The notes under the pieces are model-generated. The model did no database searches and had not been told where the DNA came from. It saw only the letters and a program-made list of their open reading frames with translations. Position numbers and translations under genes: made by a program. A DNA stretch of 50,445 nucleotides from Planctomycetia bacterium. GTDB lineage: Bacteria; Planctomycetota; Planctomycetia; Pirellulales; PNKZ01. Shown here piece after piece: positions 32,302 through 38,268 of the stretch (positions are counted from its first letter, which is position 1; every line of letters starts with the position of its first letter). The DNA lies in assembly GCA_021413845.1 (NCBI GenBank), contig JAIOPP010000042.1, positions 1 to 50,445 on the forward strand, written 5' to 3'.

Positions 32302-34119
32302 TCACCCCTTTGAGCTCAGCGGCACCACTCCGTCCCAATGCGGCGGCGGGGTTCTGCCGTGTTGGGCGATAAAGACCGTGAGGAAGTCTTTCACTCGGTC
32401 TCTCGCCGGTACGGCGTGGAGCATTTCCAGCGCTTCGCTCCAGTTGCCGGCGATGAAGTGGTCGAGTCCTTGCTCGTAGTTCGCGATGTGTTCATCCGTC
32501 AGCGGCGAGGTCGGGCCCATCGGGGGCAGGAGCTCGCTCACTTCGACGAACCCGTCGGTTCCATAGGGGCGCACCCGCGCGACGCGTCGGCAGCGCGCGA
32601 TCGTCGGCGAGACGCTGCTGCGGACCATCACGGCCGTCGCTTCGTCGAGCAGGATCGGCGCGTGCAGGAGCTTCGTCATCCCTTCCAAGCGCGAAGCGAG
32701 GTTCACGACCGGCCCGAAGACCGTGACCTTCACTTGATCGACGGTGCCGATGCGCCCGGCGACGGCGCGGCCCGAGGCGAGCCCGACCCCCATGCGGAAA
32801 TCGGCCAAGGGATGGCCGGGCTGCGTCGAGGCCGTTTCCAGTTCGCGGCGCACCGCGAGCGCCGCGTTGCACGCGCGCACGACGGCATCGTGCTGCGGCA
32901 AGGGCCAGCCCCAGAAACCCATCGCGGCATCGCCGTGAAAGTCGCCGAGCACGCCCCCCTGCTCCAAAATCTGATGCGTCATTACGCCGAGAGCCCGACT
33001 CACGCGCTCGAGCAACCCGAGCAGATCGTCGGCGTTGCGCTGCATGGCGAGCGTGAAGCCGCGGAGATCGCAGAACATCACGCAGACATCGGCCTCGCGC
33101 GGCGCGAGCACGAGATCGGGATCGGCCGTTTGCATCGCGCCGAGCACGGCCGGCGCAAAGAAGTTGCTCAGCGCCGCTTGGCGACGTCGCAAGTGCTCGC
33201 TCTGTCGGAGCGCCGCTAAGACCGAGGCGACGAGCTCGCTGAACTTCACGTCTTCGCGCAAATCGGAAGGATCGCTCGGCGTGACGCTCAAGCCGGCCGG
33301 CCCGTGGTAGCGACCGGCGACATACAGGCTCCAGCCGCGACAAGCCTCGCCGACGATCGGCGTGCAGAAAGCCCAATCGGCTTCTTCGGTCATCGTAAAC
33401 GAGCCGCTCGTGCCGGAGGTGCCGGTGTTCCACACATGCAACACGCTTTGCTTCCGCCGGATCGCTTCGAGAATCAAACGCTGGCTCGGTTGGAAATCGC
33501 CGGCCGTGTGGTGGCGACGGTCCCAGTGCAACACGCGCACTTGCTCGCGCCCCGTCGGGTGCGACTTCGTATCTTCGGGATCGGCGACTTCCGCTTCGAC
33601 CGCGGTGATGGCGACGACGTTGGCCCGCGCGATGCCGGAGAGGAGCAGATTGACGAGGCGCACGAACAGCTCTTCGTCGTTGCCGGCCCCGGAGATCACT
33701 TCCGGGAGGCGACTCAAAACTTCGAGCCGCTGGTCGGCGTTGCGGTAGCGAACCCGTTCGAGATATTGAGGACTGAACGTTTTCTCTTCGAGCGGCTGCG
33801 GACCTTCACGGCCGACGCGAATGCGGTCGTCGGCGAAAGTGAACGTCGTTTCGCCGATGACGAAATGCTCGCCGGGCCGAAGCTCGAACTCCGCCGGATC
33901 GTTTCCGCCGACGAAGACGGGATTGCGGGCGGTCGGCAAACGCCGGACGAAAAGCTTTCCCTTGCGCAGCACGAGCTCGCAATGACGGCGCGAGATCCGT
34001 TCGTCCCAAGTGACCGACCAAGCGCCGCAATCGCGGCCGAGCGTCACCGCTTCGTCGGGCACGAGCGTGCGACGCCAGCGGTGATGCGGTCGTGAGCCTT
34101 GGGCGATTAGGTCGGCCAT
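32302..34119 (-). CDS. FHA domain / class III nucleotidyl cyclase
   Basis: 605 residues: FHA domain (about 20-110; GRD, SRRH near 44-47, ARNP near 63) that would bind phosphothreonine; GAF-like middle (about 130-305); class III cyclase catalytic domain (about 335-510); helical tail with a TPR-like hairpin (about 525-590). Cyclase motifs: first metal Asp in MFCDLRGFT, second metal Asp in HGDAAMGFWG, Asn/Arg in VVNLASRLE. The residue that is Lys in adenylate cyclases is Asp (GDFHGD), and the second base-contact position is Thr. The nucleotide used (ATP or GTP) is therefore uncertain. Follows the kinase gene by 36 bp; a kinase-to-FHA relay is inferred. Confidence 0.88.
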   Translation of the reverse strand: MADLIAQGSRPHHRWRRTLVPDEAVTLGRDCGAWSVTWDERISRRHCELVLRKGKLFVRRLPTARNPVFVGGNDPAEFELRPGEHFVIGETTFTFADDRIRVGREGPQPLEEKTFSPQYLERVRYRNADQRLEVLSRLPEVISGAGNDEELFVRLVNLLLSGIARANVVAITAVEAEVADPEDTKSHPTGREQVRVLHWDRRHHTAGDFQPSQRLILEAIRRKQSVLHVWNTGTSGTSGSFTMTEEADWAFCTPIVGEACRGWSLYVAGRYHGPAGLSVTPSDPSDLREDVKFSELVASVLAALRQSEHLRRRQAALSNFFAPAVLGAMQTADPDLVLAPREADVCVMFCDLRGFTLAMQRNADDLLGLLERVSRALGVMTHQILEQGGVLGDFHGDAAMGFWGWPLPQHDAVVRACNAALAVRRELETASTQPGHPLADFRMGVGLASGRAVAGRIGTVDQVKVTVFGPVVNLASRLEGMTKLLHAPILLDEATAVMVRSSVSPTIARCRRVARVRPYGTDGFVEVSELLPPMGPTSPLTDEHIANYEQGLDHFIAGNWSEALEMLHAVPARDRVKDFLTVFIAQHGRTPPPHWDGVVPLSSKG

Positions 34120-34155
34120 CGGGAAGCAGCGCTTTCGGCAAACGACGAGACTTTT

Positions 34156-36408
34156 CTAGAGGCCATCGGGTCCACGTGTTTTTTCATTCGGCTTATGAAT
34201 CAACGTCGCCGCGGCCGGACGGGTCGCCGCGGTAATGCCGACGACGCCGGAATCGGAATTCGAAGAAGGTTGCGTCGTCGAACTCAGGCTCGCGCCGGCG
34301 AGGCCCGTATAGCGGCGCAAGAACTTCGTGAACTCGTTCTGCGGAGCTTCGTTGAGCACGATCATGACGAAGCCCCACAGCGCAGTGACCACGGCAATGA
34401 CGACGCCGAGCGCCGTCAGACCGTAGCGCATGAGCTTCCGACCGAGCTCTTGAGCCGGGCGAAGCGCCTCAGCATAAGGTTCTTGCACGATCACGACCCA
34501 ACCGGTCGCTCCCGCCTCCGGCGGACGCCCGGCGACGACGACCGGTTGAAACGCCGCGAGCCAACGATTGTTCGCGCCGTGGTCGAGCGGATCGTGGTAG
34601 TTGTTATCGTTCTCCAGAGCGGTCGCGGCTTTCGCGCTTGCGGGATCGGAGGAGGTCGCCAGGCGCGTCAGCTTCTGCAAGCGCTCGACTCCGGCGGCGT
34701 CGAAGTAGGCGGGCTCGGCATTCGGTTCGCCGATGTGCGAGGCGAGATGAGGATGTTCGAGGATCGCGCCGGCGCGATTGTCGGAATCTTTCTTGCTGTC
34801 GACGAGGACCGCGACTTGGCTGCGCTGCGAAGCGCCATCGGCGCGGAGCTCCGCGAACTTCCCGATCGCCACGGTTACGGAAAGCACGCCGATCACTTTG
34901 CGCGCCGCAAGCTCCGGCTCCGTGCTCCAGATCGGAACCGAGAACGCGACTTTGCGTTCTTGCGTCGACTGGCTGACGAAGACGTTCGAGAGATGCGCGA
35001 CGCGGATCGGCTCGATGTTCGGAGTCCCTTCCGGAAGCCCGCCGCGACCGTTGAAGTAATCGCGAAACGCGTAGTTCTTGCCGACCGTCTTCGCGTCGTA
35101 TGGAACGCGGGCCACTTGATTGCCGCGGCCGTCGAGCATCGCCCAGCTCGCGGCCTCGATCTCCGGATACTCGCGGTCGAGTCGCTCGACCCAAGCTTGC
35201 AGCAGCTTGCCGTCGGCGGGAGTGATTTTCGGTACGGCTGCCACGCGCGTAAAAATCTCGCGCAAGTCCCGATCGCCGGCCTCTTCTTCGAGCGTCTGCC
35301 AACGGCGGTCGATCTGTCCCGCCACCGTTTCGGCGACGAACTGCGCGGCGAAGTCGTTGGTCTCGATCGCGCGGCGGGAGAGCGCTTCATCCGACTCGCG
35401 CACCGCAGTGCCGTAGACGCTCCAAGCAAACCAAGTAACGACGGCCAGCAACACCGCCGGACCGATCGCACCGAGCACGAGCAGCGGCCGACGCGATTGC
35501 CGGAGCGAGCGCGCATCGAGCGCGTTGAGTACCGCTTGCGGATTCGGATAGCGGCGCGCCGGGTTCGGATGTAAGCAGCGCGAGATGATATCGCTTAGAT
35601 CGCGATCGACGCCGGAGACCTGCCGATGCCTGGTCGGCGAAGGGGCGTGCATGATGTACTTGCGATACGCCGCGAGCTTTTCGGGCAGGCCCGGATGCCG
35701 CTCGAATTGCGCAAGGCTTTCGGGCGTTCGTTGCGGCGGCTCGCCGGTGAGCATGCTGTAGAGTAGCGCGCCGAGCGCGTAAACATCCCACCGGGCGTCG
35801 GGCACGGCGTTCAAGTCGGCTTGCTCGGGAGCCATGTAGAAGAGCGTGCCGAGCGCCGGAGTTTGTTCGTGCGAAAGGCGGGCCTGGCCGAAGTCGGCCA
35901 AGCGCGGGCGGTGGTCTTGGTCGAGTAGGACGTTGCCCGGCTTGAGGTCGCAGTGCAGTACGCCTTTGTCGTGGGCGTGAATGAGGCCGATCGTAATGTC
36001 TCGAAACAGCCCCAAGGCTTCCGCAACGGGAATCGTCCCCTTCTGCATCCGGTCGGCAAGCGAGCCGTTTTCGAGATACTCCATCACGTAGTAAGGGGGC
36101 GACGCATCCCAGCCGACGTCGATCAGCTGAACGACATAGCGATCTGCGAACAGAAACGCGAGCTTCTCCACCTCGCGCGAAAGGAGCGACCAATCGACGC
36201 CGCCGCGATGAACATAGAACTTGATCGCGGTGCGCCGGCCGGTGTTGCGATCGATCGCCACCCACACTTCGCCGTAGGCTCCGGCCCCGAGGAACCGCTC
36301 GATCTCGTAGCCGGGCACTTCGGTCGGCGGGCGCAAACGCTGCGAGCTGCGCTGCTGTGCGCGAGCGAGATCGTCGGGATCTTGCGAGATGGTAGGATCG
36401 TGCGACAC
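34156..36408 (-). CDS. Receptor-type Ser/Thr protein kinase with periplasmic Cache domain
   Basis: 750 residues. Kinase domain (about 35-295): glycine loop LGAGAYGEVWV, Lys in TAIKFY, Glu in REVEKLAF, catalytic loop HCDLKPGNVLLD, DFG in LADFGQA, APE in FYMAPEQAD. HCD in place of HRD makes it a non-RD kinase. Membrane segment 1 at about 305-330, a periplasmic double-Cache-like domain (about 335-650) with ASWAMLDGRGNQVARVPYD and GKNYAFRDYFNGRGGLPEG, membrane segment 2 at about 662-690, and a Ser/Thr-rich cytoplasmic tail. Cache domains bind small metabolites. It is the first gene of an operon with the FHA-cyclase. Confidence 0.9.
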   Translation of the reverse strand: MSHDPTISQDPDDLARAQQRSSQRLRPPTEVPGYEIERFLGAGAYGEVWVAIDRNTGRRTAIKFYVHRGGVDWSLLSREVEKLAFLFADRYVVQLIDVGWDASPPYYVMEYLENGSLADRMQKGTIPVAEALGLFRDITIGLIHAHDKGVLHCDLKPGNVLLDQDHRPRLADFGQARLSHEQTPALGTLFYMAPEQADLNAVPDARWDVYALGALLYSMLTGEPPQRTPESLAQFERHPGLPEKLAAYRKYIMHAPSPTRHRQVSGVDRDLSDIISRCLHPNPARRYPNPQAVLNALDARSLRQSRRPLLVLGAIGPAVLLAVVTWFAWSVYGTAVRESDEALSRRAIETNDFAAQFVAETVAGQIDRRWQTLEEEAGDRDLREIFTRVAAVPKITPADGKLLQAWVERLDREYPEIEAASWAMLDGRGNQVARVPYDAKTVGKNYAFRDYFNGRGGLPEGTPNIEPIRVAHLSNVFVSQSTQERKVAFSVPIWSTEPELAARKVIGVLSVTVAIGKFAELRADGASQRSQVAVLVDSKKDSDNRAGAILEHPHLASHIGEPNAEPAYFDAAGVERLQKLTRLATSSDPASAKAATALENDNNYHDPLDHGANNRWLAAFQPVVVAGRPPEAGATGWVVIVQEPYAEALRPAQELGRKLMRYGLTALGVVIAVVTALWGFVMIVLNEAPQNEFTKFLRRYTGLAGASLSSTTQPSSNSDSGVVGITAATRPAAATLIHKPNEKTRGPDGL

Positions 36409-36566: not shown

Positions 36567-36604
36567 AGCCGTAGCCGATCGACTGGCATCGATCGGCTAC
36601 GGCT
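36567..36604 (-). terminator. Hairpin after the MORN gene, probable terminator
   Basis: A perfect 16-bp stem (36567-36582 with 36589-36604, loop CTGGCA) about 55 bp past the stop of the minus-strand MORN gene. On the minus strand it is followed by TTTCTT, a weak T-tract. Confidence 0.6.
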
Positions 36605-36657: not shown

Positions 36658-38268
36658 CTACTTCGGAGCCGCTTCCTTCGCTTCCTTGAGCAGGGCATCG
36701 ATCGAGATTAGATCGTCGGCGACTTCCAGCTTTTTCGGAGTCGGAGCTTCATTGCCGAGCAAATTCTTTTCGACGAAGCCCGGCTTTTCGAAAACCGGCT
36801 TGGCTTCCGCGGCTTTCACGTCGGCGGGCTCGCCGGTGCTCGTCTCGATTTTGCTGGCTTGCGCGCCGCTCGGTTTCGCAGGCTTGCTCTCAGCGTCTGG
36901 TTTTTTCGCACCGTTATCTTCGGGCGAGCTCAATTTCAGCGACGACGCCGGCACGGTCTCTTGCTTATAGATAAACCGGCGCGTGGGTGTCGGCGGTGTC
37001 GGTGCTTGCGTCGGAGTCGGTTGCGACTCCAGGTCGACATCTTCCTCTTCCGGCAGCAGCTCCAGATCGGCGTCTTTGAGTTCCGTCTTGGGCTCGGGCG
37101 GCGCTAAGGTCGGCTCCTTCGTCGACTTCAATGTCCCCTCGGCTTTGTTGCCGGTGAGAATCGTCATGTTCGAAACGACCGTGCCGTTTTCTTCCCACGA
37201 ACGCCAGTTGCCTCCTTCGAGGCCCATCACGTATTCGCCGGAGATTTCCTTGAGCCCGTGGGAATACCACCAAGTCCAAGGTCCATCTTGCTTGCCCGCG
37301 ACGAAGCTCCCTTCGATAGCCTTGTTCCCGTTTTCGTGGTACCAGGTGAACTTGCCGTCGGCTTTGTCGTCGGTGTAGTTCCCCTCGAGGATCTTGAGCC
37401 CTTCGAGATTCCAGGCGACGAATTTGCCGTGGCGTTGATCGCGTCCGATCTTGCCGATGATCTTAACTTCCGTCGTCCCCTTCCACCAATTCTCGTTGAC
37501 TTCGAGAACATCTTTGGCGAAGAGCGTTTCACATTCCGATTTCACTTCGCCGGTAGGGTAGTGCTCGACCTTGACCGCGTGTCGGAAGCCCTGCACGAAT
37601 TCTTCTTGCTTCACGGCGACTTCGTTCTTATCGTACTCCACGGCCTTGCCGTCGAGCTCGCCGAGTTGATATTCGAGTTCGCGGAACTTCCTGCCGTTGG
37701 GCCTCCAAGAGACCGATTTGCCGTGACGTCGGCCGTCGTGAAATTCGGCCGCGCTGACTTGGCGCTTCTTCGCATCGAGCACGATCCACATGCCGTCGAG
37801 CTTGCCGTCGGCGAATTCTCCGGTCGACGTGAACGGAGCTTCGAAGCCGAGACTGATCGCGGTCGCGAAAGCTTCGGCGGTTTCTTCTTCGGAATAGAAG
37901 CGGATCCATTTGCCGCTTTGCGCGCCGGCGATGAACTGACCGCGACCGATCAGCTTGCCCGACTCGTCCCACTTGGCCCACGGGCCGTGGTTGAAGAAGT
38001 TTCCTTGATCGTCTTGAGCGACGTAGCGTTCGACTTTCAACGTGCGGTTCGGATAACGCTCGGAGATCTTCTCTTTTTGTCCGACTTTCACGGGTGCCGG
38101 GATGCTCGAAGCCAGCGGTGCCGAATCGAGCTGAATCACGGCGGGCGCCGCGGCATCGGTAGCAACGAGATCGAACGGTTCCTGTTCGGCACCGACGCAC
38201 AACGGGCTCCAGGTCGCCAGAATTCCCAGCGCGAGACCGCAATTGCGGCGGGCAGTTCGGGTGATCAT
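36658..38268 (-). CDS. Secreted MORN-repeat (toxin-antitoxin YwqK-type) protein
   Basis: 536 residues. Signal peptide 1-27 (cut near CVGAE). Residues about 90-375 hold some eight degenerate MORN_2 repeats of about 23 residues, recognisable by G-x-W/F-x-x-(Y/W)xxxGxxxxxGxF: GKWIRFYSE, GMWIVLDAKK, GKSVSWRPNGRK, GKAVEYDKNE, GKFVAWNLEGLK, GKFTWYHENGNK, GPWTWWYSHGLK and GNWRSWEENGT. Residues 390-536 are a Pro/Glu/Lys-rich low-complexity tail. MORN repeats form elongated beta sheets involved in lipid or protein contacts; a role at the cell surface is inferred. Confidence 0.82.
   Translation of the reverse strand: MITRTARRNCGLALGILATWSPLCVGAEQEPFDLVATDAAAPAVIQLDSAPLASSIPAPVKVGQKEKISERYPNRTLKVERYVAQDDQGNFFNHGPWAKWDESGKLIGRGQFIAGAQSGKWIRFYSEEETAEAFATAISLGFEAPFTSTGEFADGKLDGMWIVLDAKKRQVSAAEFHDGRRHGKSVSWRPNGRKFRELEYQLGELDGKAVEYDKNEVAVKQEEFVQGFRHAVKVEHYPTGEVKSECETLFAKDVLEVNENWWKGTTEVKIIGKIGRDQRHGKFVAWNLEGLKILEGNYTDDKADGKFTWYHENGNKAIEGSFVAGKQDGPWTWWYSHGLKEISGEYVMGLEGGNWRSWEENGTVVSNMTILTGNKAEGTLKSTKEPTLAPPEPKTELKDADLELLPEEEDVDLESQPTPTQAPTPPTPTRRFIYKQETVPASSLKLSSPEDNGAKKPDAESKPAKPSGAQASKIETSTGEPADVKAAEAKPVFEKPGFVEKNLLGNEAPTPKKLEVADDLISIDALLKEAKEAAPK

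Follow-up and report, generated by a model that had tools for sequence, protein, structure and literature searches.

Two adjacent genes on a planctomycete contig (Planctomycetia bacterium, GenBank assembly GCA_021413845.1, contig JAIOPP010000042.1; the whole stretch analysed, 50,445 nucleotides long, is called the window) encode a membrane Ser/Thr protein kinase and a protein that joins an FHA domain to a class III nucleotide cyclase. The pair is real and is conserved in two orders of the class. On the basis of its gene structure, its conserved pairing, its conserved residues and the correlated divergence of the two proteins, we propose that they form a transmembrane relay, in which the kinase would phosphorylate itself, the FHA domain would dock at Thr6 of the kinase, and the cyclase would thereby be controlled, with cyclic GMP (cGMP) as the likelier product. 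We put the probability of this reading as a whole at about 0.45.

The predicted course of the relay would be the following. The kinase would span the inner membrane, with a Cache-like sensor on the outer face and the catalytic domain on the inner, and binding of a ligand would lead to autophosphorylation. The likeliest docking site would be Thr6 in the flexible N-terminal tail of the kinase, to which, once phosphorylated, the FHA domain of the cyclase protein would bind. Docking could bring the cyclase to the membrane, let the kinase phosphorylate it, or align the cyclase dimer by way of a GAF-like region and a long helix. The outcome would be controlled synthesis of a 3′,5′-cyclic nucleotide, more likely cGMP than cyclic AMP (cAMP).

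An original prediction, made from the letters of the window, had described a kinase gene followed after 36 bp by an FHA-cyclase gene, and this layout is confirmed: the cyclase gene is downstream of the kinase gene on the same (minus) strand (Table 1). It had also named beforehand a lack of conserved pairing in related genomes as grounds for refutation, and the relay idea withstands this test. In 97 genomes of the order, for each of which the best first-look candidates were scored with thresholds of 300 bits for the cyclase and 400 bits for the kinase (the next kinase below scored 203 bits), a kinase-type cyclase is present in 53 and the kinase in 52; the two occur together in 51 genomes, 43 lack both and 3 carry a single one, two genomes with a Gly-partner cyclase (G051 and G069, see below) being counted as without a kinase-type cyclase. 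In each of the three exceptions (G006, G062 and G089) the gene lies near a contig end, on the side where its partner would lie. Because presence is partly a matter of family, kinase presence was shuffled inside families, three of which are mixed, and p was 0.0005. In a sample of 294 genomes from the phylum (full-length cyclase above 500 bits; kinase E ≤ 1e-60) the same 20 genomes have both genes and 274 have neither; the order sample contains five of the 20 as well, and the other 15 belong to a single family of another order of the same class. Of the 66 genomes that have both, 38 carry the genes within 200 bp of each other on the same strand, and one (G093) has them 1.4 kb apart. A separate scan of 31 named loci, on partly overlapping contigs, found the kinase upstream of the cyclase in 16 and not in 15, seven of which (L074, L080, L087, L088, L090, L093 and L094) have more than 5 kb upstream without a kinase.

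Some related loci stand apart from these counts. A second, paralogous kinase-cyclase pair, with the tail motif T-x-x-Met, occurs in G001 (C528, L127), where the gap is 0, and in G002 (C295/C230; L153, L135), where it is apparently cut over two contigs. Relatives of the FHA-cyclase in records of Candidatus Nealsonbacteria and Bacteroidales (L073, L094) are likelier to be binning errors than transfers.

The two proteins also diverge together. Tree distances were compared in 35 of the 66 genomes, all of the order, for which a canonical LepA and a cyclase of more than 500 residues had been fetched; neither second-pair paralogs nor the cyclase paralog L133 nor the 15 genomes from the second order entered the comparison, nor did any genome lacking a fetched canonical LepA, and all trees were quick trees with long branches flagged. 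Distances of the kinase domain and the cyclase correlate at 0.74, as against 0.52 and 0.38 for kinase and cyclase, respectively, with LepA. With LepA removed, the partial correlation between kinase and cyclase is 0.69, and none of 1000 permutations was as high, LepA being a single and thus thin control. The kinase domain correlates less closely with its own sensor (0.45 by the same measure) than with the cyclase, the sensor distances being large and possibly saturated. A divergent LepA was encountered in G051 (C4:347882-349678); copies in G093 and G078 are 78 and 77% identical to it, the other listed LepA matches are 47–51% identical to it, and G051 also holds a 50% copy.

The kinase is apparently a complete Hanks-type Ser/Thr kinase. 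It matches Pfam Pkinase at 6.9e-42, and K63, E79, D154, N159 and D172 (the Lys, the Glu, the catalytic Asp, the Asn and the Asp of DFG) are invariant in 42 family members. It falls outside the RD subgroup: C153, before the catalytic Asp, is likewise invariant in the 42, giving HCD, whereas HRD stands in all 25 other kinases of the window genome that were parsed (30 of 58 matches were fetched). An AlphaFold2 model with a mean predicted local distance difference test score (pLDDT) of 85.2 places a long helix at residues 290–377, a mixed sensor region and a second long helix at 650–685; the C-terminal tail is of low confidence and is not conserved among relatives. A Foldseek search, whose list consists of kinase-domain chains throughout and so covers the kinase domain and not the sensor, returned as best chain 6i2p_A, the PknB kinase domain from an entry with GarA. 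As for the Cache-like sensor that had been named from sequence, 35 of 42 scanned family members match dCache_1 at E ≤ 0.01.

How might the FHA protein recognise this kinase? Within residues 1–33 of the kinase, which are otherwise variable, conservation is confined to T6, Q9, S21, P28 and a few positions beside the kinase domain. In an alignment of 69 kinase tails T6 is present in 66. The other three rows (G073, G144 and G275) have a gap there; in these a Thr, likewise part of a T-x-x-Q, is found shortly before the start codon that the script had selected. Position 9 is Gln in 64 of the 69. The distance from T6 to the glycine loop is 35 residues in 64 of 66 kinases, and T-x-x-Q at that distance occurs in none of 33 other kinases, namely the 25 parsed from the window genome and eight near relatives, which are those read among the ten next-best scores of the order-wide kinase search. 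The case for Thr6 as a candidate docking site, predicted to be phosphorylated, is thus that it is invariant in the family and holds a fixed position. In 13 of the 25 window-genome kinases (among L250–L279) L-T-x-x-Q lies exactly 27 residues before the loop, which looks like a shared N-terminal domain. One genome, G309, is the sole row with His for the FHA residue Asn66 and also the sole row with Tyr for Q9, a single case that proves nothing. Docking on the Thr-rich C-terminal tail of the kinase was considered and rejected, as this tail is variable or short in relatives.

The partner protein matches Pfam FHA (22.7 bits; cut-off 20.7) and Guanylate_cyc (44.8 bits; cut-off 21.9). Residues were counted in 73 rows, from which a truncated second copy of the window cyclase (L035) had been dropped and in which orthologs cut by contig ends were retained as gaps. 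The phosphothreonine site of FHA domains is marked by the motifs GR, SxxH and NG (PMC1262709). GR and SxxH are present and conserved here, with G28 and R29 in 70 rows (3 gaps), S43 in 71 (2 gaps), H46 in 70 (2 gaps, 1 Gln) and N66 in 70 (2 gaps, 1 His), so that these residues of the putative binding site are near invariant. Between the FHA and cyclase domains, and overlooked at first, is a putative GAF-like region, so labelled from the order of its predicted secondary structure; Pfam GAF matched none of 55 family members at E ≤ 0.01, the window protein included. The AlphaFold2 model (mean pLDDT 88.3) shows strands in the FHA region, elements in GAF order, a helix at 284–318 and the catalytic domain. 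The two metal-binding Asp residues and the Asn/Arg pair reported earlier are confirmed as D351 (73 of 73 rows), D397, N473 and R477 (72 of 73 each, 1 gap). In a fold comparison by VIA-align, whose rows cover mainly residues 299–537 and barely touch the FHA and GAF-like regions, the top three chains align over 187–207 residues with Z of 21.2–22.2 and a root-mean-square deviation of 2.1–2.5. By these residues and the modelled catalytic fold the protein is a class III nucleotide cyclase, and it is predicted to be active.

Which nucleotide would it make? D393 (32941-32943) occupies the position of the adenine-reading Lys and T466 (32722-32724) that of its partner residue. Position 393 is Asp in 70 rows, Glu in two (G183 and G201) and a gap in one, and position 466 is Thr in 69, Gly in three and a gap in one. 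The Lys of Lys/Thr-type adenylyl cyclases, which form class IIIb, is thus missing from the FHA-cyclase family, and to judge from the alignment the acidic residue is a family trait and not an oddity of the window. Both residues had been described as altered. The change from Lys to Asp is real; T466 was rejected as an altered residue, since Thr is the usual partner in the Lys/Thr cyclases fetched from the phylum. Of the ten best-scoring planctomycete cyclases outside the family with given loci, which are not a random sample, eight are Lys/Thr, one Asp/Gly and one Ser/Gly, and so the Lys-to-Asp exchange is the only real one; by sequence the kinase-linked family is one charge reversal away from the Lys/Thr type. 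In guanylyl cyclases Glu replaces this Lys, and C, S, T, H, A or G replaces the Asp (PMC4215837), a partner set that includes the Thr466 of the window protein, although Thr is also the partner in Lys/Thr cyclases. In a profile search of the PDB the Glu of Synechocystis Cya2 was aligned to Asp393. The cyclase may work like a guanylyl cyclase without being classed as one, and the identity of the cyclic nucleotide, left uncertain in the original prediction, is narrowed a little: as an acidic residue replaces the base-reading Lys throughout the family, as it does in guanylyl cyclases, we lean slightly towards cGMP rather than cAMP. We rate this no higher because Asp is shorter than Glu, and because a substrate for the Asp and Thr pair, or for any Asp enzyme, was not found in the parts of the open-licence literature that were accessible. 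Possible receivers of the product are five window-genome proteins with cyclic-nucleotide-binding domains: a CRP-type regulator, an ABC-transporter protein, an encapsulin-like shell protein, a patatin-like protein and an iron-sulphur protein in which the domain is repeated.

A subfamily with a Gly partner accompanies the kinase-linked cyclases. Its three rows (a window-genome paralog on C55, G051 and G069) form one clade with support 99. The C55 paralog (G000:C55:32617-34386; L133, L290) is a second FHA-cyclase of the window genome, with no family kinase within the stretch read, and about 8 kb from it lies an 822-residue iron-sulphur protein with repeated cyclic-nucleotide-binding domains. A further window-genome cyclase, L001 (G000:C90:33865-34356), has Asp with a Gly partner and no Pfam FHA match. 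The shell protein with a cyclic-nucleotide-binding domain (G000:C69:22277-22528; L158) is SrpI-like.

A number of observations weigh against the proposed relay. Absences in the surveys are not absolute, because only the best first-look candidates of each genome were scored (in the order at most 13 for the cyclase and 11 for the kinase, in the phylum at most 4 and 3), and the genes are split in 27 of the 66 genomes that have both. Might both simply belong to the accessory gene set of the class and lie side by side through shared descent, with no physical or functional contact? The splitting would fit such a passive association, and a distance correlation with one control gene cannot exclude shared history, but we hold it to be quite improbable: presence and absence are joint even inside the three mixed families, the partial correlation is as high as given above, and both genes are retained after separation, being kept even when unlinked, since 28 of the 66 genomes have them further apart than 200 bp. 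Furthermore, the two genomes that have a full-length cyclase interior to a contig and no kinase ortholog (G051 and G069) both belong to the Gly-partner subfamily. Other points concern the input and the contact between the proteins. In the window kinase itself the dCache_1 match is weak (3.4e-5; 23.9 bits against a curated cut-off of 45), and ligand sensing outside the membrane is predicted from this match. In the FHA domain the residue after Asn66 is Pro, where the NG motif has Gly. S21 and P28 are found in 69 of 69 kinase rows, as invariant as T6, so that conservation of the tail could be structural. T-x-x-Q lies within 60 residues before the glycine loop in 14 of the 25 other window-genome kinases, and in three of the eight near relatives, at 17, 17 and 41 residues; the kinase L280 (G016) has both HCD and T-x-x-Q, 41 residues before the loop, and no full-length FHA-cyclase was found in G016 among the best first-look candidates of the order search. 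T-x-x-Q as a signature exclusive to this kinase family was therefore rejected, the pattern alone being non-specific because it is present at other places in other kinases. Co-occurrence and co-divergence are, moreover, silent on which Thr is bound, and with 11 FHA and 58 kinase matches in the window genome other partners are possible. The two proteins could thus belong to one pathway in which the FHA domain reads a site phosphorylated by the kinase on the cyclase or on a third protein, not on the kinase tail. This is somewhat less likely than the proposed relay, for Thr6 is the only Thr kept throughout the variable kinase tail, and the C-terminal tail of the kinase is not conserved.

The remaining points concern the product. 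Adenylyl cyclases head the fold ranking (Z 22.2), Cya2 coming 17th (Z 20.0), and the PDB profile search ended in a near tie between a phytochrome-cyclase fusion (91.8 bits), Cya2 (90.1) and the adenylyl cyclase OaPAC (88.4), the first of which has Lys where Cya2 has Glu. The Asp present in 70 of 72 complete rows, that of the window protein included, differs from the Glu of known guanylyl cyclases; the Thr partner is as usual in Lys/Thr cyclases; and Asp at the Lys position with a Gly partner occurs outside the family (L001 and L191). In addition, triple mutation of an adenylyl cyclase is reported to have made it equally specific for either substrate (PMC4215837). It is thus plausible, though not what we favour, that the product of the cyclase is cAMP or more than one cyclic nucleotide, or that the enzyme has low activity and mainly binds a nucleotide. 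On the other side, an active enzyme is likely because the metal, Asn and Arg residues are present in 72 of 72 complete rows, and the adenine-reading Lys is present in 0 of 72.

The proposed relay, with Thr6 docking and cGMP as product, resembles several known systems in part. In actinobacteria, PknG or PknB with GarA/OdhI is likewise a case of a Hanks-type kinase acting on an FHA protein. There the Thr sites lie on the FHA protein, in the unstructured N-terminal extension (ETTS) of GarA (PMC5448819), and the output is enzyme binding, whereas here it is the kinase that bears the conserved Thr, and the FHA protein contains a cyclase. PKN2 of Myxococcus xanthus combines a kinase with a guanylyl-cyclase-like domain that has Glu and Thr at the base-reading positions (PMC1262709), an acidic and Thr pair like the present one; it is a single polypeptide whose architecture, as named in that source, is without FHA, whereas the present system is encoded by two genes and has an FHA link as well as a Cache-like sensor. 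Cya2, the guanylyl cyclase that was the second-best PDB profile match, has Glu and Gly as against Asp and Thr in the kinase-linked family, and the Gly-partner subfamily shares its Gly. Animal receptor guanylyl cyclases have an outside sensor, a kinase-like domain and a cyclase in sequence, in one chain and with a pseudokinase. The order of parts is the same here, with an apparently complete kinase and a separate cyclase, so that by analogy the pair may be a two-part bacterial counterpart of these hormone-sensing enzymes.

Table 1. Coordinates in the window of the kinase-cyclase pair and its parts.
Feature	Position	Strand	Remarks
Membrane Ser/Thr protein kinase gene	34156..36408	minus	750 aa, GTG start, stop codon included
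Kinase N-terminal tail with candidate T-x-x-Q docking motif	36310..36408	minus	residues 1-33; T6 (36391-36393), Q9
Hanks-type kinase domain	35533..36309	minus	residues 34-292; HCD replaces HRD
First transmembrane helix, approximate	35410..35487	minus	residues 308-333; hydrophobic stretch in long predicted helix, read from sequence
Cache-like (dCache) extracytoplasmic sensor, predicted	34465..35403	minus	residues about 336-648; dCache_1 over residues 346-525
Second transmembrane helix, approximate	34360..34440	minus	residues 657-683
Intergenic gap, kinase stop to cyclase start	34120..34155		36 bp
FHA / GAF-like / class III cyclase gene	32302..34119	minus	605 aa, stop codon included
FHA domain	33853..34047	minus	residues 25-89; G28, R29, S43, H46, N66 conserved
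GAF-like region, putative	33280..33786	minus	residues about 112-280; predicted secondary-structure order only
Long helix leading into cyclase	33166..33270	minus	residues 284-318; AlphaFold2 model
Class III cyclase catalytic domain	32515..33108	minus	residues 338-535; D351, D397, N473, R477, D393, T466

A promoter scan at the locus of the pair found none, the chance expectation being 1.0. Upstream, between the kinase gene and a MORN-repeat gene (36658-38268, minus strand), a hairpin of 16 pairs, which may be a terminator, is located at 36567-36604.

Among bacteria Ser/Thr kinases are common, as are class III cyclases, and planctomycetes are rich in kinases. The parts of the relay are all of known kinds, and it is their wiring that may be new: no recognisable description of an FHA domain that links a membrane kinase to a cyclase was found in open-licence PMC full text, which leaves subscription papers largely outside, and in a phylogeny of planctomycete kinases the word ‘cyclase’ is absent from the main text (PMC11032199). 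A bolder version would extend the scheme to the whole class as a two-gene receptor guanylyl cyclase, in which the Cache kinase marks its own T-x-x-Q and the FHA-GAF cyclase docks there and makes cGMP by means of Asp or Glu together with Thr; in this full form we consider it unlikely. The predicted docking residue and the predicted product make the relay testable by a few simple assays. If true, it would add a route from kinase to cyclic nucleotide in a kinase-rich phylum, and the logic of the receptor guanylyl cyclases would be found split over two genes.

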